A stretch of 64,000 nucleotides of DNA. Source: Vreelandella halophila (GTDB lineage: Bacteria > Pseudomonadota > Gammaproteobacteria > Pseudomonadales > Oleiphilaceae). How positions within the stretch are numbered: the first letter of the stretch is position 1; each line of letters opens with the position of its first letter. Under the pieces are notes generated by a model, which had not been told where the DNA came from, ran no database searches, and saw only the letters and a list, made by a program, of their open reading frames with translations. The translations under genes were made by a program, and so were the position numbers. The DNA is taken from positions 1,396,285 to 1,460,284 of the forward strand of contig NZ_JACHUZ010000013.1 in assembly GCF_019903425.1 (NCBI RefSeq), read 5' to 3'. Below, piece by piece: positions 14,609 to 24,157 of the stretch.

Positions 14609-15664
14609 ATGACCGCTTCCGATGCCATCCGTCACGACTGGACCCTGAAGGAGGTCCGCGAACTTCTGGATATGCCGTTCAACGACCTGGTCTTCCGGGC
14701 CCAGCAGGCGCACCGCCAGTGGTTTGATCCGAATGAGGTGCAGGTCTCGACACTGCTCTCCATCAAGACCGGTGCCTGCCCTGAGGACTGTATGTACTGC
14801 CCGCAGAGCGGTCACTACAACACGGGCCTCGAGAAAGAGAAACTGATGCAGGTCGAGAAGGTCCTGGAACAGGCGAAAGCGGCCAAGGAAAGCGGTGCCA
14901 CCCGCTTCTGCATGGGCGCCGCCTGGCGCAGCCCCACCAAGAAGGATCTGCCGCATGTGCTGGACATGATCCGTGGCGTGAAGGACATGGGTCTCGAGAC
15001 CTGCATGACCCTGGGCATGCTCACCGAGGATCAGGCCGGGGAGCTCGCGGAAGCGGGGCTGGACTACTACAACCATAACCTCGATACCTCCGAGCGCTAC
15101 TACAACCAGATCATCACCACCCGGACCTTCCAGGACCGCCTGGATACTCTGGAGAACGTGCGCAACGCCGGCATGAAGGTCTGCTGCGGCGGCATCATGG
15201 GCATGGGCGAGGATGAAGACGACCGGGCAGGCCTGCTGCTGCAGCTGGCCAACCTGCCGGATCACCCGGAAAGCGTGCCGATCAACATGCTGATCAAGAT
15301 TCCGGGTACGCCGCTGGAGGATGTCGAGGATCTGGATCCGTTCGAGTTCGTGCGCACCATTGCGGTGGCGCGCATCCTGATGCCGAAGAGCCACGTACGC
15401 CTTTCCGCGGGCCGTGAGGATATGAACGACCAGATGCAGGCCCTGTGCTTCATGGCCGGTGCCAATTCCATTTTCTACGGCGATCAGCTTCTGACCACGG
15501 AAAACCCGCAGGCCGAGCAGGACCGGGCGCTGTTCCGGCGCCTTGGCATTGTGCCGGAACCGCTGGCAACGAACCGTTCGGACGAGGATGAAGCCGAGGA
15601 GCTGAGCCGTCGCATGGAGCAGGAACGCCAGAGCGCCCTGTTCTACGACGCGGCCAATGCCTGA
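14609..15664 (+). CDS. bioB: Biotin synthase BioB
   Basis: BioB is a radical-SAM enzyme that inserts sulfur into dethiobiotin, the last step of biotin synthesis. The 351-residue protein has the [4Fe-4S] motif Cys57-x3-Cys61-x2-Cys64 in [15 protein letters not shown], then [12 protein letters not shown] and the [13 protein letters not shown] block; the Arg and Cys ligands of the second cluster fall in SAGREDMN and [11 protein letters not shown]. The start is preceded by AAGGACACC. bioF starts 8 nt before its end. Confidence 0.98.
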
Positions 15665-16820
15665 TTACGAAGCGGAGCTTGAAACACTGCGGCAGCAGGG
15701 GCTGCTGCGGGAACGCCGGGTTCTGGACTCCGCTCAGGGCCCGGAGATTGTTGTGGACGGCCGCAGCATGCTGGCCTTCTGCAGCAATGACTACCTCGGG
15801 CTTGCCAACCACCCCGGTGTGATTGAGGCGCTTACGGACGCGGCCCGTGAACACGGGGTGGGCAGCGGCTCCTCGCATATGGTGAATGGCCACCACCGGC
15901 TCCACCAGGAACTCGAGGAAGCTCTTGCGGAACATACCGGCCGCGAAGCGGCGGCGCTCTTTTCCACGGGCTATATGGCCAACCTCGGTGTCACCGCCGC
16001 CATAGCCGGCCGCCATGACGTTATCCTTCAGGACCGCCTGAACCACGCCTCACTACTGGACGGTGCCCGTCTCGCGGGTGCCCGCCTTAAACGCTATACC
16101 CATGCTGACACCCAGGCCGCCGCGCGGCTGCTGGAGTCGGAATCCCGCTGTGCGATGGTGGCGACCGATGGGGTCTTCAGCATGGACGGCGACCTGGCAC
16201 CGCTGGACGGTTTGTCCGCGCTCTGCCGGGAGCGGGATCTGCCCCTGATGGTTGATGACGCTCACGGTCTGGGGGTGCTGGGCAGCAAGGGCGGCGGTAT
16301 CGCCGAGGTCCGCGGTCTTGACCAGTCCGCAGTGCCGATACTGGTGGGCACACTGGGCAAGGCACTGGGTGTCGGTGGCGCCTTTGTTGCCGGCTCACAG
16401 GAATTTGTGGACTACCTGGTGCAGAAGGCCCGCACCTACATCTACACCACGGCCATGCCGCCGGCGATGGCGGCCGCGACCCGGCGCAGCCTGGAACTCT
16501 GCCGGGAAGAGGGCTGGCGGCGTGAACGCCTGGCGAAGCTGGTGGCGTGGTTCCGGGATGAGGCCATGGCGCTCGGCTACCGGCTGATGGAATCCTGGAC
16601 GCCGATACAGCCACTGATCGTGGGGCCTTCGGACCGGGCCATGGCGTTGAGCGAGGCGCTGGCGCGGCGCGATATCCTGGTGCCGGCGATCCGTCCGCCG
16701 ACGGTTCCCCAGGGTGAGGCGCGGCTGCGCCTCACCTTCAGTGCCAGCCACACGGATGAACACATGGAGCGGCTTCTGGAGGCGCTCAGGGCTGCGCGCA
16801 GCGAAACGGGGGCGGCATGA
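15657..16820 (+). CDS. bioF: 8-amino-7-oxononanoate synthase BioF
   Basis: BioF is the PLP enzyme that condenses pimeloyl-ACP with alanine. The 387-residue protein has the conserved [32 protein letters not shown] and [11 protein letters not shown] blocks, and the PLP lysine at about residue 235 in [13 protein letters not shown]. The gene overlaps bioB by 8 nt and bioH by 4 nt, so translation through the operon is coupled. Confidence 0.97.
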
Positions 16821-17530
16821 CCACGGTGGTGGTTGTCGGCGGCTGGGGTGTCCCGGCAGAGGCGCTGCGGCCCCTGCTGCCCGCTGGCGTGGAGCCCGTG
16901 GTGCTGGAGCCGGCCCGGATGGCGGTGGGGCATGAGGACCTGGAGTCCGCCTTGGAATCCGTGATGGCCCGTGTTCCGGCGGGGGTGCCCTGGCTGGGCT
17001 GGTCCCTGGGCGGTCAGGTGGCCATGGCGGCCCGAGAGTGGTTCCCGGAGCAGGTGAGCGGCGTGGTCACCCTGTGCTCGACGCCGCGCTTTCTGGAGGC
17101 GCCGGACTGGCCCGTGGGCATGGCGGGCGCCGACTTCCGTGGTTTCCGGGAGGGCATGCTGACGGATGTGGAGCAGACACTCGGGCGCTTCTGCGCCCTG
17201 GTCAGCCAGGGCAGCGCTTCCCCCAGGCAGGTGCGCCGTGAGCTGAAGGCGCTGGCGTGGCCGGATCTGACCGCGGAGTACCAGCAGGGGCTGGCCAACA
17301 GCCTGGCGTGGCTTGCCGAGCTCGATCAGCGGGATGCCTGGCATAAGGCGGGTCCTGGAGCGCGGCATCTGTTCTGCGGGCGTGATGCATTGGTCAGCGG
17401 GGCTGTACCGGAAGCGCTCGGTTTGGCTGGAGAGCGCTGTCATCTGGCGGCGGATGCTTGCCACTGGCCGGCTTCCGCCGCTGGAGTGACGGATTGGATC
17501 AGTGGGGCTTTGGAGCAGGTGACATCATGA
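16817..17530 (+). CDS. bioH: Pimeloyl-ACP methyl ester esterase BioH (compact form)
   Basis: BioH cleaves pimeloyl-ACP methyl ester, ending the BioC-dependent disguise of the growing chain. The 237-residue alpha/beta hydrolase has the nucleophile Ser63 in GWSLGG, Asp190 in CGRDALV and His216 in ACHWP. The oxyanion segment is GGWG rather than the HGWG of E. coli BioH, and the protein is about 20 residues shorter. Its place between bioF and bioC supports the assignment over other esterases of the pathway. Confidence 0.88.
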   Translation: MTTVVVVGGWGVPAEALRPLLPAGVEPVVLEPARMAVGHEDLESALESVMARVPAGVPWLGWSLGGQVAMAAREWFPEQVSGVVTLCSTPRFLEAPDWPVGMAGADFRGFREGMLTDVEQTLGRFCALVSQGSASPRQVRRELKALAWPDLTAEYQQGLANSLAWLAELDQRDAWHKAGPGARHLFCGRDALVSGAVPEALGLAGERCHLAADACHWPASAAGVTDWISGALEQVTS

Positions 17531-18330
17531 ATGCGCGGCAGTTCAACCAGGTCAGTCGCCAACGCGTATCCGATGATTTCGGCGCCGCCGCTGAGAGCTA
17601 TGATGCGGCGGCGCGCCTTCAGCAGCGCGTGGCGCTGGATCTGCTGGCCCGGATGAATGTCCCCGGGGGCGGTGTGGGGCTCGATCTGGGCTGTGGTACC
17701 GGTTTCAGCCTGCCGGAGCTGGAGCGCAGGCTGGCCCCGAGGGAGCTGATTGCTGCCGACCTGTCCCCCGGAATGATCGATCATGCCCGGGCACAGCGGG
17801 GCGTGGACGCGCGCTGGCTGGTGGCTGATGCCGCGAATGTGCCGCTGGCTTCGGGTAGCCTGGACTGGATCCAGTCCAGCCTGATGATCCAGTGGTGCGA
17901 GGACACTGGCGCCGTGGCCCGGGAGATGGCAAGGCTGCTGGGGTCTGATGGCGAGGCCCATCTGGCGACCCTGGTGGACGGCACCCTGACCGAGCTAGAA
18001 TCCGCGTGGGAGGAGGCCGATCCCGGCCGCCGCCACGTCAACCACTTCCTGACCCGGGCCGAACTGGAGACGCGGCTGGCCGAGGGCTTTGAGGGCGTGA
18101 CCGTTGATGTTGAGCCGCTGGTGCTGTGGTACCCGGATGTCATGGCACTGCTGGGAGAGCTCAAGACCCTCGGGGCCAGCTACAAGGATGAACAGCGCCA
18201 CCGGGGCGCACTCGGCCCGGGGCGCCTGAAAGCCATGCGCCGCGCCTATGACCGCCACCGGGATCCCCAGTATGGTGTGCCCGCAACCTGGCAGGTCGCC
18301 TTTGTGCGCCTGACTGGACCCAGGCAATAA
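17527..18330 (+). CDS. bioC: Malonyl-ACP O-methyltransferase BioC
   Basis: BioC methylates the free carboxyl of malonyl-ACP so that fatty acid synthase can build the pimeloyl chain. The 267-residue protein starts at ATG 17527, overlapping the bioH stop as ATGA; the longer open frame upstream lies inside bioH. It begins QVSRQRVSDDFGAAAESYDAAARLQ, as is typical, and has SAM motif I VGLDLGCGTGFSLPELE at residues ~50-66 and the LDWIQSSLMIQWC block. Confidence 0.95.
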   Translation: MNARQFNQVSRQRVSDDFGAAAESYDAAARLQQRVALDLLARMNVPGGGVGLDLGCGTGFSLPELERRLAPRELIAADLSPGMIDHARAQRGVDARWLVADAANVPLASGSLDWIQSSLMIQWCEDTGAVAREMARLLGSDGEAHLATLVDGTLTELESAWEEADPGRRHVNHFLTRAELETRLAEGFEGVTVDVEPLVLWYPDVMALLGELKTLGASYKDEQRHRGALGPGRLKAMRRAYDRHRDPQYGVPATWQVAFVRLTGPRQ

Positions 18331-18351
18331 CCGGAACCTTCCATAACGCCC

Positions 18352-19053
18352 ATGCCAAGACAATCCTACTTCATCACAGGTACTGACACGGACTCCGGCA
18401 AGACGGTGGTCACTGCTGGCCTTCTGCGCCTGGCTGCCCGCAATGGCCTGAGTACCCGTGCCATGAAACCACTGGCGTCCGGCTGTGAGCAGACCAGCGA
18501 AGGCCTGCGCAATGCCGATGCCCTGGCGCTGTCACAGGGGATGACCGAGTCCATGCCCTATGAGTCGGTGAACCCGGTTGCATTGGAGCCGGCAATTGCG
18601 CCCCATGTGGCCGCCCGGGATGCGGGACGCCGGGTCAGTGTCGAGCGTCTGGCGGGGTTCTGTCGTGGCGCCATGATGCGCCCGGCGGACCTGTTCCTGG
18701 TTGAAGGCGCTGGGGGCTGGCGTGTGCCGCTCAATGACCGTGAGACCTGGAAGGATCTGGTAACCGATCTCCAGCTTCCCGTGATCCTGGTCGTGGGACT
18801 GCGCCTTGGGGCCATCAATCACGCATTGCTCAGCGCCGAGCTGATCCAGCATGACGGCTGCAGGCTGGCGGGCTGGGTGGCCAACCGCTGCACCCCGGAG
18901 TCCATGGCCCGGGAAGATGAGACCTTCGAGACCCTCTGCGAGTACATGCCGGCGCCCTGCATGGGGCGTGTGCCCTGGCTGGCTTCCCAGGATCCGGCTG
19001 CCATGGCGGAAGAGGCCTCCCGCTACCTGTCACTGCCTCTGCGCGGCGAGTGA
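18352..19053 (+). CDS. bioD: Dethiobiotin synthetase BioD
   Basis: BioD is an ATP-dependent carboxylase that closes the ureido ring of dethiobiotin. The 233-residue protein has the P-loop GTDTDSGKT at residues 10-18, the KPLASGCEQT segment and VEGAGGWRVPL. It is the last gene of bioB-F-H-C-D. bioA, needed to make diaminopelargonic acid, is not in this window. Confidence 0.97.
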   Translation: MPRQSYFITGTDTDSGKTVVTAGLLRLAARNGLSTRAMKPLASGCEQTSEGLRNADALALSQGMTESMPYESVNPVALEPAIAPHVAARDAGRRVSVERLAGFCRGAMMRPADLFLVEGAGGWRVPLNDRETWKDLVTDLQLPVILVVGLRLGAINHALLSAELIQHDGCRLAGWVANRCTPESMAREDETFETLCEYMPAPCMGRVPWLASQDPAAMAEEASRYLSLPLRGE

Positions 19054-19082: not shown

Positions 19083-19101
19083 AACACTGCTGTGGTGTAA
19101 T
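19073..19101 (+). promoter_or_regulatory. Candidate promoter for the flagellar-rod-like gene
   Basis: TTGAAT (19073-19078) and TGTAAT (19096-19101) are separated by 17 nt, with four and five of six matches to sigma70 hexamers. It lies 32 nt upstream of the ATG at 19134. I see no sigma28-type (TAAA-N15-GCCGATAA) sequence here. Confidence 0.5.
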
Positions 19102-19133: not shown

Positions 19134-19397
19134 ATGATCAGTAATACCCTGTCCATTGGTGTGAATGGCATTCAGGATGCCCAGCGTGGCATGCAGGATG
19201 CAGCCAGCCGTATTGCGCGGTCGGGAACCACGGAAACGCCTCCGCAGGAGGCCGCTGCCCCGGGTGGTGCCGGTGAGAACAGCCTGGCGGGATCCATCGT
19301 GGATCTGAAGGTCAACCAGCGGAACGCCGAGGCTTCCGTTGAAGTGGTTCGGACAGCGGACGAGATGGTGGGGACGCTGCTCGATGAACGTGCCTGA
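19134..19397 (+). CDS. Small flagellar basal-body rod-like protein
   Basis: An 87-residue protein whose two ends resemble those of flagellar rod/hook proteins (FlgB/FlgC/FlgE family). It starts SNTLSIGVNGIQDAQRGMQDAASRIARSGT, a heptad-like N-terminal helix, and ends SIVDLKVNQRNAEASVEVVRTADEMVGTLLDERA, the usual C-terminal helix. The globular middle is replaced by a short Pro/Ala/Gly linker. No other flagellar genes are near. It is 18 nt upstream of the SprA-related gene, so the two are likely one operon. Its role is unknown; a minimal coiled-coil pair is all that can be seen. Confidence 0.75.
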   Translation: MISNTLSIGVNGIQDAQRGMQDAASRIARSGTTETPPQEAAAPGGAGENSLAGSIVDLKVNQRNAEASVEVVRTADEMVGTLLDERA

Positions 19398-19415
19398 CTC
19401 CGGAATGGAATCGCC

Positions 19416-20351
19416 GTGCAGCTTACATCCATCCAGCCCGCGATCAGCAACGGCGGCGGCGTTGTAACCCGAAGCGCCGCACCTCCCGGTACGGCCTCCG
19501 GCAACGTGCCACAGACCCGTACGTCCAGTAGCAGCACGTCACCATCCTCTTCCACAACGTCCGTCAATCCGGCAACACCTTCCAACCCGACAGTTCCGTC
19601 CAGGCCAGCACCTCCTTCCACGCGTAGTGACGGGGGTAGTAGTGGTGGCGTCCAGGTCTCCATCAGTGAGCAGGCTCGGCAGCAGGGACCAGCGGAGGGA
19701 GATCGTAATGGCCCGGGAGCCGGGGAGGAGGCCTCTCAGCCGCGCCCGGCACGGCCGCGCAATGAGGCCGGGCCGGACTCCGGACAGGAGGAAGATCGGG
19801 GCGACCGACGCCAGCCGGGGCAGGAGGATGACGGGCCATCCCCGGAACAGCAGTCGGCCGTTCAGGAACTGAGGAGTCGGGACCAGGAAGTGCGCCAGCA
19901 TGAACAGGCGCATCAGGTGGTGGGGGGGCAGTACGCCGGTGCGCCCACCTACACCTACCAGCGGGGACCGGAGGGCCAGCTCTATGCCGTTGGTGGGCAG
20001 GTCTCCATTGATACCAGCCCGATCCCTGATGACCCGGAAGCTACCATCAGCAAGATGCAGACAGTGCGCTCCGCCGCACTGGCGCCGGCCGAACCCTCTC
20101 CCCAGGATCTCAGGGTGGCCCAGGAGGCGACCCGTCAGCTGCTGCAGGCCCAGTCGGAGCTGCGGTCATCACGCCAGGAAGAAGGTGGCAGTAGCGATGA
20201 CGGGCCACAGAGCACGCCGGAAACGCAGGCCACCGACTCCGACCGTTCCGGAGGGGAGGATGCCCGCATCAGCCTCTTCCGCGATGTGGAGGATTTAGCG
20301 TCCACGGACCCCGCGACCGCCACCGATTCAGGCTTCCGTGCCACGGCCTGA
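19416..20351 (+). CDS. SprA-related putative metalloprotease (CJM1_0395-like)
   Basis: A 311-residue protein with a long disordered Ser/Pro/Gly/Glu-rich N-terminus (residues ~20-145) and a conserved core of about 100 residues. The core holds the zincin motif HEQAH at residues 162-166 (HExxH), then VVGGQYAGAPTYTYQRGPEGQLYAVGGQVSIDTS and a segment with ISKMQTVRSAALAP. This matches the SprA-related family of putative metalloproteases. I see no signal peptide or membrane helix. Start is GTG 19416. Activity and substrate are not established from sequence. Confidence 0.82.
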   Translation: MQLTSIQPAISNGGGVVTRSAAPPGTASGNVPQTRTSSSSTSPSSSTTSVNPATPSNPTVPSRPAPPSTRSDGGSSGGVQVSISEQARQQGPAEGDRNGPGAGEEASQPRPARPRNEAGPDSGQEEDRGDRRQPGQEDDGPSPEQQSAVQELRSRDQEVRQHEQAHQVVGGQYAGAPTYTYQRGPEGQLYAVGGQVSIDTSPIPDDPEATISKMQTVRSAALAPAEPSPQDLRVAQEATRQLLQAQSELRSSRQEEGGSSDDGPQSTPETQATDSDRSGGEDARISLFRDVEDLASTDPATATDSGFRATA

Positions 20352-20458: not shown

Positions 20459-22258
20459 ATGCCCCAGTACAAAGCACCGCTGCGCGATATCCAGTTTGTC
20501 ATGAACGAGCTGCTGGATACTGAAACGCATTATCAGCAGATTCCGGGTGGCGAGGAAGCCACGCCGGACATGGTCAATGCCATTATCCAGGAAGGGGCCA
20601 AGTTCTGTGAGCAGGTGCTGTCGCCGCTGAACCAGACCGGGGACCAGCAGGGCTGCACCCTGGAAAACGGTGAGGTGAAGACGCCCACCGGTTTCAAGGA
20701 AGCCTACAAGCAGTACATTGAGGGTGGCTGGCCTTCGATGACTGCGGATGAGGAGCTTGGCGGCCAGGGGCTGCCCGGTTCTCTTTCCATGGTCATGAGT
20801 GAAATGGTGGGTACGGCCAACTGGTCCTTCGGTATGTATCCCGGCCTCAGTCACGGCTGCCTGAACACGCTGGAAGCCCATGGTTCCGAAGAGCAGAAGC
20901 AGACCTATCTGCCCAAGATGATCAGTGGTGAATGGACCGGCACCATGTGCCTGACCGAATCCCATTGTGGCTCCGACCTCGGCATCATGCGCTCCAAGGC
21001 GGAACCGAATTCTGACGGCAGTTACAGCATCACCGGTGAGAAGATCTTCATCTCCGCTGGCGATCACGACATGTCGGACAACATCATCCACCTGGTACTG
21101 GCCAAGTTGCCGGATGCGCCCAAGGGCACCAAGGGCATCTCGGTCTTTGTGGTACCCAAGTTCATTCCCGACGAGAACGGCAACCCGGGCGAGCGCAACA
21201 GCGTCTCCGTCGGATCCATCGAGCACAAGATGGGCATCCACGGCAACGCCACCTGCGTGCTGAACTTTGATGGTGCCAAAGGCTTCCTTATTGGCGAGCC
21301 GCACAAGGGCTTGAGTTACATGTTCACCTTCATGAACATCGCCCGTATCGGTACCGCCATTCAGGGGCTGGGCTCCGCGGAACTGGCCTTCCAGGGATCG
21401 CTTGAATACGCCAAGGACCGCCAGGCCATGCGCTCGCTCTCCGGGGCCAAGAATCCGGACGGCCCGGCTGATCCCATTATCGTCCACCCCGACGTCCGGC
21501 GCATGCTGATGACCCAGAAGGCGCTGGCTGAAGGTGGCCGTGCGATGATCTATTACGCGGCTCAGCAGGCGGACATCGCCACGCGCAGCCGGGATGAGAA
21601 CGCCCGTAAGGAAGCTGACGAGCTGCTTGGCTTCCTGACGCCGATTGCCAAGGCGTTCCTGACTGAAACCGGAGTCGACGCGGCCAACCAGGGCATGCAG
21701 ATTCTGGGCGGTCACGGTTATATCTCCGAGTGGGGGATGGAACAGATCGTCCGTGATGCGCGCATCGGTACCATCTACGAAGGCACCACGGGCATCCAGG
21801 CCCTCGACCTGCTGGGTCGCAAGGTACTGATGACCCAGGGCGAATCGCTCAAGCGCTTCACCAAGAAAGTGCACCTGTTCTGCAAGGAGCATGGTGACAA
21901 CAAGCAGCTGGCGGAGTTCATCGAGCCGCTGGCGGCCTTCAACAAGGAGTGGGGCGACCTGACCATGAAGCTGGGCTCGGCCGCCATGAAGGATCGTGAA
22001 GAGGTTGGGGCGGCGTCCTACGACTACCTGATGTACTCAGGCTACGGCGTGCTCGCGTACCTCTGGGCGGAGATGGCGGAAGTGGCCCAGCGTAAGCTGG
22101 AAGAAGGCACCACCGAAGAAGCCTTCTATACAGCCAAGCTCCAGACAGCCCGCTTCTACTTCCAGCGGATGCTGCCACGGGCTAAGGCACACGCCGATGC
22201 CATGGTCAGTGGTGCGGACAACCTTATGGACATGCAGGAAGAGCATTTCGCTTTCTGA
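20459..22258 (+). CDS. Long acyl-CoA dehydrogenase (DmdC-like), paralogue 1
   Basis: A 599-residue acyl-CoA dehydrogenase of the large type with extra C-terminal helices, related to DmdC (3-methylmercaptopropionyl-CoA dehydrogenase) and to long-chain enzymes of beta-oxidation. It begins MPQYKAPLRDIQFVMNELLD and carries the FAD/substrate block TGTMCLTESHCGSDLGIMRSK, ITGEKIFISAGDHD, GGHGYISEWGMEQIVRDARI and IYEGTTGIQALDLLGRK, which holds the likely catalytic Glu. Substrate cannot be decided from sequence. The promoter carries PsrA-like sites, pointing to fatty acid degradation. A terminator separates it from the downstream paralogue. Confidence 0.9.
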   Translation: MPQYKAPLRDIQFVMNELLDTETHYQQIPGGEEATPDMVNAIIQEGAKFCEQVLSPLNQTGDQQGCTLENGEVKTPTGFKEAYKQYIEGGWPSMTADEELGGQGLPGSLSMVMSEMVGTANWSFGMYPGLSHGCLNTLEAHGSEEQKQTYLPKMISGEWTGTMCLTESHCGSDLGIMRSKAEPNSDGSYSITGEKIFISAGDHDMSDNIIHLVLAKLPDAPKGTKGISVFVVPKFIPDENGNPGERNSVSVGSIEHKMGIHGNATCVLNFDGAKGFLIGEPHKGLSYMFTFMNIARIGTAIQGLGSAELAFQGSLEYAKDRQAMRSLSGAKNPDGPADPIIVHPDVRRMLMTQKALAEGGRAMIYYAAQQADIATRSRDENARKEADELLGFLTPIAKAFLTETGVDAANQGMQILGGHGYISEWGMEQIVRDARIGTIYEGTTGIQALDLLGRKVLMTQGESLKRFTKKVHLFCKEHGDNKQLAEFIEPLAAFNKEWGDLTMKLGSAAMKDREEVGAASYDYLMYSGYGVLAYLWAEMAEVAQRKLEEGTTEEAFYTAKLQTARFYFQRMLPRAKAHADAMVSGADNLMDMQEEHFAF

Positions 22259-22282
22259 ACCGGTATGATCCGGTAAGCATGA

Positions 22283-22307
22283 AAAAGCCCGCCATGTGCG
22301 GGCTTTT
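22283..22307. terminator. Terminator between the two acyl-CoA dehydrogenase genes
   Basis: AAAAGCCCGC and GCGGGCTTTT form a perfect 10-bp stem around a CATGT loop, with A and T tracts flanking on either side, so it could work in both directions. It lies 25 nt after the first dehydrogenase and 57 nt before the second. Confidence 0.9.
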
Positions 22308-22363
22308 CTGTGAGAAATCCCGGGGTAGAATAGCCCCGCAGACGTTCAAAGTGAGGACAATCC

Positions 22364-24157
22364 ATGGCTGAGTACAAGGCGCCCCTGCAGGACATGCGGT
22401 TCCTGCTCAACGAGATCTTCGATGCACCGGGCCAGTGGGCTTCTCTGCCCGGTCTGAGCGAAAGCGTGGATCCGGAGACGGCGGATGCCATTCTGGAAGA
22501 GGCCGGCAAGATCGCAGCGGGAACGCTCGCCCCCATCAACCAGAGTGGCGATGAGCAGGGCTGTCAATGGAAGGATGGTGAGGTCACCACGCCTGACGGT
22601 TTTAAGGAGGCTTACCAGACCTTCGCCGAGGGCGGATGGGTCGGTCTCGGCGGTGATCCCAACTACGGCGGCATGGGCATGCCCAAGAGCCTGGTCGGGC
22701 AGGTCGAGGAGATGATGCAGGGGGCCAACATGGCCTTCGGTCTCTGCCCCATGCTGACCGCCGGCGCCTGCCTGGCTCTGCATGCCCACGGCAGCGAGGA
22801 ACTCAAGGAGAAGTACCTCCCGAGGATGTACGACGGCACCTGGTCCGGCGCCATGGACCTGACGGAGCCCCACGCCGGCACAGATCTGGGCATCATCCGC
22901 ACCAAGGCGAAGCCCAACGATGACGGCTCCTACAGCATCTCAGGCACCAAGATCTTCATCACCTGGGGTGAGCACGACATGGCGGAGAACATCATCCACC
23001 TGGTGCTCGCCAAGCTGCCGGACGCCCCGGCCGGACCCAAGGGCATCTCGCTTTTCCTGGTACCGAAATACGAAGTGAACGAGGACGGTTCTCTGGGCGC
23101 TCGCAATAACCTCTCCTGCGGTTCGCTGGAGGAGAAAATGGGCATCCACGGTTCCGCGACCTGCGTCATGAACTACGATGATGCCCGTGGCTTTCTCGTG
23201 GGCGAGCCCAACAAGGGCCTGATGGCCATGTTCACCATGATGAACTACGAGCGCCTGGGTGTGGGCATCCAGGGCGTGGGGGCGGCGGAAGCCTCCTACC
23301 AGCATGCCCTGGCCTATGCCCGCGAGCGCATCCAGAGCCGCTCGCCCAACGGCCCTCAAGCTCCGGAAAAGCAGGCGGACCCGATCATCGTTCACCCGGA
23401 CGTCCGTCGGATGCTGTTGAAGATGAAAGCCCACACCGAGGGCAGCCGTGCCTTCATTACCTATGTGGCGCAGTGGCTGGACCAGGCCAAGTTCGCCGAG
23501 GATCCGGAGGCGAAGGAGAAAGCCGACGGCATGGTGGCGCTGCTGACGCCGGTGGCCAAGGCTTTCCTGACCGACCGGGCACTGGATACCTGCGTGATCG
23601 GCCAGCAGGTCTACGGCGGTCATGGCTACATCCGTGAGTGGGGCCAGGAGCAGCTGGTGCGTGATACCCGGATCACCCAGATCTACGAGGGGACTAACGG
23701 CATCCAGGCGATGGATCTGATGGGGCGCAAGGTTGTTGGTAACGGCGGCAAATTCTTCGAACTCTTCGCGAATGACGTGGCCGACTACATCAATGCCAAC
23801 CAGGATGAGCCGGCGGTCGCCGAATACATCCAGCCCCTGGCGGCGGCTCTTGAACGTCTTTCCGATGTGACCGAAAGCGTCATCAAGGCATCGGATGGCA
23901 ATCCAGCGGAGATCGGTGCGGCCGCCGTGGACTACTTGGACCTGTTCGGGCTCACGGCTGAAGCCTTTCTTTGGGTTCGCATGGTGCAGGCAGCCGCGCC
24001 CAGGGCGGAGAACGATACCTCCGGCTTCTACACCGGCAAGCTCAAGACGGCGCGTTTCTTCTTCGATCGCATCCTGCCGCAGTCGGTTGCCCTGGCTGAA
24101 TCCATCCGCAATGGCGGCGACAGCATGATGGCGTTCGACGAAGCCGAGTTCGGCTAA
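22364..24157 (+). CDS. Long acyl-CoA dehydrogenase (DmdC-like), paralogue 2
   Basis: A 597-residue paralogue of the upstream gene with the same layout: MAEYKAPLQDMRFLLNEIFD at the start, GAMDLTEPHAGTDLGIIRTK, ISGTKIFITWGEHD, GGHGYIREWGQEQLVRDTRI and IYEGTNGIQAMDLMGRK. It lacks the PsrA-like sites seen before paralogue 1 and is cut off by a terminator, so the pair is probably regulated separately. Its stop overlaps the convergent holA stop by 4 nt. Confidence 0.9.
   Translation: MAEYKAPLQDMRFLLNEIFDAPGQWASLPGLSESVDPETADAILEEAGKIAAGTLAPINQSGDEQGCQWKDGEVTTPDGFKEAYQTFAEGGWVGLGGDPNYGGMGMPKSLVGQVEEMMQGANMAFGLCPMLTAGACLALHAHGSEELKEKYLPRMYDGTWSGAMDLTEPHAGTDLGIIRTKAKPNDDGSYSISGTKIFITWGEHDMAENIIHLVLAKLPDAPAGPKGISLFLVPKYEVNEDGSLGARNNLSCGSLEEKMGIHGSATCVMNYDDARGFLVGEPNKGLMAMFTMMNYERLGVGIQGVGAAEASYQHALAYARERIQSRSPNGPQAPEKQADPIIVHPDVRRMLLKMKAHTEGSRAFITYVAQWLDQAKFAEDPEAKEKADGMVALLTPVAKAFLTDRALDTCVIGQQVYGGHGYIREWGQEQLVRDTRITQIYEGTNGIQAMDLMGRKVVGNGGKFFELFANDVADYINANQDEPAVAEYIQPLAAALERLSDVTESVIKASDGNPAEIGAAAVDYLDLFGLTAEAFLWVRMVQAAAPRAENDTSGFYTGKLKTARFFFDRILPQSVALAESIRNGGDSMMAFDEAEFG

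Follow-up and report, generated by a model that had tools for sequence, protein, structure and literature searches.

What is the function of two adjacent open reading frames, one encoding a small protein with flagellar-type helices and the other a putative metallopeptidase, that are located between biotin genes and acyl-CoA dehydrogenase genes? This question is raised by a locus in the 64,000-nt stretch of DNA analyzed here (termed the window). The features of the locus are listed in Table 1.

Table 1. Positions of the gene pair and of its sequence features in the window.
Feature	Nucleotide positions	Strand	Remarks
Small hook-helix (D0-only) protein gene	19134..19397	+	ATG start, 87 aa
C-terminal helix, Flg_bbr_C-like (residues 51–84), into FliK-like tail LDERA (83–87)	19284..19394	+	
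Intergenic gap, small gene/SprA gene	19398..19415	+	18 nt
SprA-related (PF12118) HExxH protein gene	19416..20351	+	GTG start, 311 aa
SprA folded core, residues 143–262	19842..20201	+	predicted structure
HEQAH motif, residues 162–166 of SprA protein	19899..19913	+	

An initial reading made from the letters alone (the sequence-only reading) had described the small open reading frame, the short gap and the HEQAH protein on the same strand, and this arrangement is borne out. The 18-nt gap is consistent with co-transcription of the two genes. The same reading stated that no flagellar genes are near, and a comparison of the open reading frames of the window with the flagellar proteins of the same genome gives no match at E ≤ 1e-3. 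The flagellar operons are on the same contig, with the fli/che genes about 1.2 Mb and the flg genes about 0.6 Mb from the window. In a search of NCBIfam, neither protein of the pair was matched at E ≤ 1.

The pair is flanked on one side by biotin genes (bioB, bioF, bioH-like, bioC, bioD; positions 14609–19053) and on the other by two acyl-CoA dehydrogenase genes (20459–24157). The gene order of biotin genes, pair and acyl-CoA dehydrogenases is retained in Marinobacter loci and partly in Hahella and Pseudomonas; loci of the Pseudoalteromonas and Rheinheimera type display only a bioH-like gene upstream. A TGTGG[CT]nTAAT-like intergenic element (19091–19101) upstream of the small gene is common to many Marinobacter loci. 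A promoter was first considered for the conserved stretch upstream of the small gene in Marinobacter, but bioD is directly upstream there and the stretch may be partly coding.

The small protein has a similarity to Flg_bbr_C (PF06429) at residues 51–84 (E = 0.0013) with 18.7 bits, below the cut-off of 23. Individually, 24 of 33 members of the small family match this model (E ≤ 0.05). An alignment of the 33 sequences has three invariant columns, and the consensus is MIxxxLxxGxQGxQxGxxGxxxAAxxIAxAG...LxExxVDLKLxExxVxASAxVVxTADExLGTLLDxxA. A profile of the family aligns with a profile of 12 FlgE sequences over its C-terminal 42 columns (E = 3e-8). Against PDB chains the family profile gives FlgK (E = 0.0021) and FlgE (E = 0.016) as leading matches, followed by FlgC (0.12) and FlgG (0.22), and FlgB is not listed among the matches. 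The sequence-only reading assigned the small protein to the FlgB/FlgC type; the profile comparisons place it nearer to FlgE and FlgK. Judged from these comparisons, its C-terminal helix is homologous to that of the axial proteins FlgE, FlgK and FlgG, and to FlgE/FlgK rather than FlgB/FlgC.

The N-terminal half is less clear. The first 34 columns score above shuffled sequences with all 12 FlgE N-termini (p = 0.0005 to 0.0175), and also with FlgK, FlgF and FlgL. The signals with FlgB (p = 0.0145) and FlgC (p = 0.0435) are weaker, and with FlgG the shuffle test is not passed (p = 0.15). The N-terminal helix thus displays a weak similarity in position and register to FlgE and FlgK, but as half of the FlgE sequences (6 of 12) give a negative raw score the likeness is suggestive only. 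The Pfam N-terminal flagellar rod models matched none of the 33 members (E ≤ 0.05).

The AlphaFold model of the small protein shows helices at positions 2–32 and 48–86 joined by a loop (mean pLDDT 74). This model matches many helical hairpins, one proximal-rod chain included, none of them at E ≤ 0.001. The PF17001 model (YscI/HrpB inner rod) is matched by one of the 33 members (E = 0.0033). The small protein can most aptly be described as a hook/HAP-type protein reduced to its two D0 helices, with the intervening domains absent. It differs from the axial proteins in having no D1/D2 domains and no NN[IL]AN motif, which is absent from the family alignment. The axial proteins end in TIINIR and the small protein ends in LLDxxA. 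Unlike axial genes, the small gene of the window is far from the flg operon.

The second open reading frame encodes a member of the SprA-related family (PF12118; E = 2.2e-36, 126.3 bits, gathering cut-off 27.3). A 2013 survey, in its available passages, predicts a zincin-like structure for this family (PMC3650047). The AlphaFold model has a core at aa positions 143–262, composed of a helix, two strands, a helix and a further helix, with 114 residues at pLDDT ≥ 90. HEQAH is within the first core helix, predicted at positions 143–173. Outside of the core the model confidence is low, with no secondary structure. A Foldseek search of the core against the PDB shows no relative at E ≤ 1, and the SprA profile has no match to solved structures at E ≤ 1. 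VIA-align of the core yields mainly helix pairs at residues 199–265, the best (Z = 7.6) being a proximal-rod chain. A membrane-like segment is found in one of 172 family sequences, and the first 40 residues have a charge fraction of 0.15 vs 0.20 in background.

HExxH is retained in 169 of the 172 PF12118 family sequences, a set from which one 108-aa SprA fragment was excluded. The exceptions are part of a split gene in genome G098, a degenerate copy in G320, and G274. In G274, which is of the same genus as the window, HExxH reads RELAR (L089:1189–2001), with the reading frame open and the pair kept; this homologue is likely inactive. In G320 (L144:2770–4173) a 467-aa SprA-like protein adjoins the small gene and has lost the HExxH core, mainly the following helix being left; an HExxH-bearing SprA copy is on another contig. 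Conservation of HExxH holds for the family at large and fails in one homologue of the same genus, G274. The window protein has the PF12118 score, the HExxH core and the company of flagellar genes in common with the SprA-related family of predicted zincins, and differs in having GGQV where most members have GGEV. The E of GGEV is present in 132 of the 146 family sequences where the motif was found, and GGQV is a minor variant, not a family-defining feature. A proteolytic function of the putative HExxH site in the window protein is proposed tentatively, at somewhat below an even chance.

The two genes are frequently found together. PF12118 is present in 39 of 58 relatives. The small gene adjoins the PF12118 gene in 36 of these 39, in one case truncated at a contig end. 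This is L145 (G327, contig C97), where the contig end cuts the small gene beside SprA and a matching N-terminal part appears on contig C96. In two relatives (G285 and G287) both genes are present but apart, and in G320 the HExxH-bearing SprA copy is apart from the small gene. In a wider sample of the class, PF12118 is present in 61 of 274 genomes; among the matches listed, the small gene is adjacent in 25 of the 61, apart in 17 and missing in 19, the last including G094 and G215. The small gene is counted in at least 67 class genomes, open frames of more than 200 aa (FlgE-sized, FlgK-sized and others) being excluded, and among the matches listed it occurs without PF12118 in 25 class genomes. 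Among FliG-positive class genomes it is listed in 39 of 57 with SprA vs 23 of 87 without it. A conserved two-gene unit, as initially suggested, is thus upheld by the 36 of 39 PF12118-positive relatives and by the 25 of 61 class genomes.

The best 80 of 591 named loci, which lean towards relatives of the window, include 61 with the small gene upstream of SprA, in Marinobacter, Pseudomonas, Pseudoalteromonas, Rheinheimera, Alishewanella, Aeromonas, Idiomarina, Hahella and others. Of the 19 loci without the small gene, 17 are not gammaproteobacterial by their record titles (mostly Alphaproteobacteria), and in all 17 the small gene is absent from the stretch around SprA. The adjacency of the two genes recurs in many genera and is thus not due to chance.

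The presence of the pair largely follows that of flagellar genes. FliG is found in 144 of the 274 class genomes, and PF12118 is present in 57 of the 144 vs 4 of the 130 FliG-negative genomes. In a phylum sample, which overlaps the class sample by a few genomes, these numbers are 24 of 236 vs 0 of 63. PF12118-positive genomes are FliG-positive in 57 of 61 cases in the class sample and 24 of 24 in the phylum sample, counts that are not phylogenetically independent. Among the matches listed, the small gene is found in 62 of 144 FliG-positive vs 5 of 130 FliG-negative class genomes.

The exceptions are few and of different kinds. Of the four FliG-negative class genomes with PF12118, G186 has five Flg_bbr_C matches, G034 three, and G195 (58% complete) none. 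In the fourth, G098, fliA is present, no FliG or Flg_bbr_C was found and the SprA frame is split. G098 was considered as a non-flagellated genome with a decayed SprA; this is weakened by its small-gene contig, which has fliA and a fliL-like gene (below cut-off), and the split frame could be an assembly error. The five FliG-negative genomes with a listed small gene are G034, G081, G098, G178 and G186. G178 (72% complete) has no Flg_bbr_C match. G081 (L125; 99% complete) is a clean exception: it has the small gene, yet no match to PF12118, FliG or Flg_bbr_C. Nine of the 58 relatives are without FliG. Seven of these, two of them less than 80% complete, have neither PF12118 nor the small gene (G276 and G307 are also without Flg_bbr_C), and the other two, G321 and G327, have six Flg_bbr_C matches each. 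A pairing confined to flagellated species, put forward as a check by the sequence-only reading, is thus nearly borne out: genomes without flagellar genes hardly ever carry the pair.

One empty site was looked at. G276, a genus-mate of 99% completeness, has no match to FliG, Flg_bbr_C, PF12118 or the small gene. Its syntenic block on contig C2 (locus L336) retains bioB, bioF, bioC, bioD and both acyl-CoA dehydrogenase genes. In the alignment, window positions 18982 and 20386 fall about 100 bases apart in G276; the pair is therefore missing while its neighbors stay. Overall, we consider a functional link between the pair and the flagellum highly probable.

Evidence for a hook relationship of the small protein, and for its tail being a special feature, is most direct in a second FlgE. 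In two genomes of one genus (G094 and G215) the gene directly upstream of SprA encodes a 396-aa FlgE-like protein, and G094 carries another FlgE inside a flgCDEFG cluster. The C-terminus of the SprA-linked FlgE in G215 (...AESLISLKMNAYQLQAQVKVIETADQIIGSLFDATA) matches the small family with E = 1.6e-9. The SprA-linked copy terminates in LFDATA, while FlgE sequences sampled beside flgD or flgF terminate in TQTIINIR in 13 of 13 cases, one with an extra R.

The tails were compared with that of FliK. In 20 sampled fli clusters, 18 of 18 FliK sequences terminate in [VIL]-x-x-[YF]-[AVI], and so does the genome's own FliK. Applied to the extreme C-terminus, a matrix built from these 19 pentapeptides (18 sampled plus the own FliK) gives a score above 0 in 51% of 110 SprA clusters and in 77% of 39 clusters of the small protein, vs 2.5% of 1253 background genes. 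With inward shifts of 1, 2, 3, 5, 10, 15 and 20 positions, 2.7% or less of the SprA or small family score. Unclustered, the area under the curve is 0.88 for 158 SprA and 0.98 for 132 small sequences. A FliK-like pentapeptide thus ends most small-protein clusters and about half of the SprA clusters. In the window, the small protein tail LDERA scores; the SprA tail, FRATA, does not score and does not follow the FliK pattern. A search with a Salmonella FliK tail gave no match. The C-terminal pentapeptide pattern is what many members of both families have in common with FliK. Apart from it the SprA profile is dissimilar, and the SprA protein was rejected as a FliK homologue (hhalign probability 0.1% against 18 FliK sequences).

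Promoter sequences were scanned upstream of the small gene, with starts chosen by rule and, as in the tail comparison, mechanically chosen open reading frames as background. FliA boxes with up to one mismatch are found upstream of 8 of 141 small genes vs 0 of 1243 other genes, and those with two mismatches upstream of 24 of 141 vs 35 of 1243. A looser FliA pattern matches 25 of 142, where shuffling gives 14 on average and 23 at most; this signal is weaker than that of the stricter pattern. SprA genes that have no small gene in their locus carry FliA boxes (up to two mismatches) upstream in 8 of 55 cases, a count that has no matched control. The FliA-box matches are from other lineages and include neither the window nor the Marinobacter loci. 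Sigma-54 boxes are not clearly enriched (2 of 142 vs a shuffled mean of 0.9; 3 of 142 vs 3.1). A genuine fliA is within 1 kb of the small gene in G132 and G245 (one genus) and in G098, and in G218 several consecutive fli genes are found at a distance of about 7 kb. Most other scanned loci have no flagellar neighbor. FliA-like matches near the small gene in L123 and L137 were discarded, as they are actually RpoH.

The pair probably represents a small flagellar accessory operon, both products of which would be clients of the flagellar type III exporter. The product of the small gene would be related to the axial proteins of the hook and hook-associated type but D0-only, consisting of the two terminal helices, the type that would pack the inner core of rod and hook, with nothing between them. 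The second would leave through the flagellum and would be zincin-like, its compact HExxH core lying between disordered N- and C-terminal parts and no membrane segment being present. In the available passages of two papers, the five C-terminal residues of Salmonella FliK are stated or proposed to be important for export switching at FlhB (PMC10965912, PMC13344023), and we therefore infer that the FliK-like tails dock at the same export gate as that of FliK. That both proteins are clients of the exporter is reasonably probable. The small protein may insert into the axial structure, a step that we hold possible but somewhat doubtful, and the SprA protein would be a zinc peptidase acting on some target.

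One relative has been studied by experiment. Campylobacter jejuni CJM1_0395 (CJJ81176_0441) belongs to the same PF12118 family by its authors' placement, not by a sequence comparison made here; in the available passages of that report it is present in wild-type supernatants and absent from those of flgG mutants in two strains, and its deletion leaves growth and motility normal and lowers adhesion and invasion (PMC5223770). Since the mutants move normally, it would be no essential assembly part in Campylobacter. Several observations are against the exporter-client reading. The SprA tail of the window is not FliK-like, neither the window nor the Marinobacter loci are among the FliA-box matches, the core is unlike FliK, and the N-terminal likeness of the small protein to FlgE is weak. 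The small gene and PF12118 are each found alone, G081 has the small gene with no flagellar match, and G274 has lost HExxH.

If the pair is connected with export, what it does there may be viewed in different ways. It could form a dedicated extra segment or plug of the flagellar axis, in which a D0 mini-subunit, a relative of the duplicated FlgE that one genus has kept full-size, is exported along with the zincin, both FliK-like tails going to FlhB; taken as a whole, this specific form is unlikely. If true, flagella would carry an enzymatic component controlled by the export switch. Of comparable, low probability are export-switch regulators, with both proteins acting on the cytoplasmic side. 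Competition of their FliK-like tails with FliK at FlhB would tune the switch from hook to filament export, and HExxH would be structural or would trim an export component. The shared pentapeptides and the statements on the last FliK residues (PMC10965912, PMC13344023) fit regulators of this type, as does HrpB2, by the accessible text a small secreted protein that interacts with HrcU, a paralogue of FlhB, and depends on its conserved C-terminus (PMC3052322). The small protein is likewise small, but it is not a clear sequence relative of HrpB2/YscI-type inner-rod proteins and it accompanies flagellar genes. Regulation from the cytoplasmic side is at odds with the Campylobacter member, which with a C-terminal tag reaches the supernatant and whose mutant is motile (available passages of PMC5223770), and with the window SprA tail, which does not score.

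A secreted enzyme is somewhat less probable still: the SprA protein, released by the flagellum, would act on the surroundings or a host, the small protein only aiding its passage. This leaves the hook-type C-terminus of the partner and the second FlgE without a reason, and the pair is conserved in free-living marine or alkaliphilic genera. The Campylobacter member agrees with a secreted enzyme both in its flagellum-dependent presence in the supernatant and in the effect of its deletion on adhesion and invasion, not motility (PMC5223770, in the passages available). The partner idea of the sequence-only reading, with the small protein serving the SprA protein as substrate, pro-piece or dedicated chaperone, would explain the adjacency, the co-occurrence in FliG-positive genomes and the small size; it is quite improbable given the 25 class genomes with the small gene alone and the 19 with PF12118 alone (among the matches listed), the C-terminal helix of the axial-protein type, and G274, which keeps the pair although HExxH is lost. 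The flanking genes might suggest service to biotin or acyl-CoA metabolism, and a bio or bioH-like gene is upstream on the same strand, mostly directly, in 59 of 63 named gammaproteobacterial loci (best 80 of 591). This is very improbable and already disfavored: the empty site in G276, which keeps bioB, bioF, bioC, bioD and both acyl-CoA dehydrogenases with no pair and no FliG or Flg_bbr_C, makes it less likely that the pair serves biotin or fatty-acid metabolism, and the two genes are apart in 17 of 61 class-sample PF12118 genomes (among the matches listed).

The sequence-only reading held the function to be undescribed. This remains so for the pairing; it does not hold for the family, given the flagellum dependence of the Campylobacter member (PMC5223770) and the zincin prediction (PMC3650047), both in the available passages. 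The SprA-related family, its zincin prediction and the flagellum-dependent release of one member are already published. The pairing, the second hook protein and the tails appear to be new with respect to the literature searched: the freely accessible titles, abstracts and passages searched gave no description of the gene pair, the second FlgE or the FlgE/FliK resemblances. Flagellinolysins, i.e. flagellins with an inserted metallopeptidase (PMC5595980), also link a metallopeptidase motif to the flagellum, as SprA does; the SprA protein differs in being a separate protein of another family with no flagellin domain match.

With the exporter-client reading as the preferred one, the meaning of the pair may be considered. 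The flagellar parts list is thought to be nearly complete for model species, and this pair accompanies flagellar genes across many gammaproteobacteria. It is mostly located away from the flagellar operons and is therefore easy to miss. As the pair is largely present or absent with the flagellum, its products are probably components or passengers of the flagellar export machinery that have escaped notice. If both are clients of the exporter, the exported set gains a minimal axial protein, a FliK-tailed second hook protein and an enzyme, and the pair would offer a direct way to test the reader of the last five residues of FliK.
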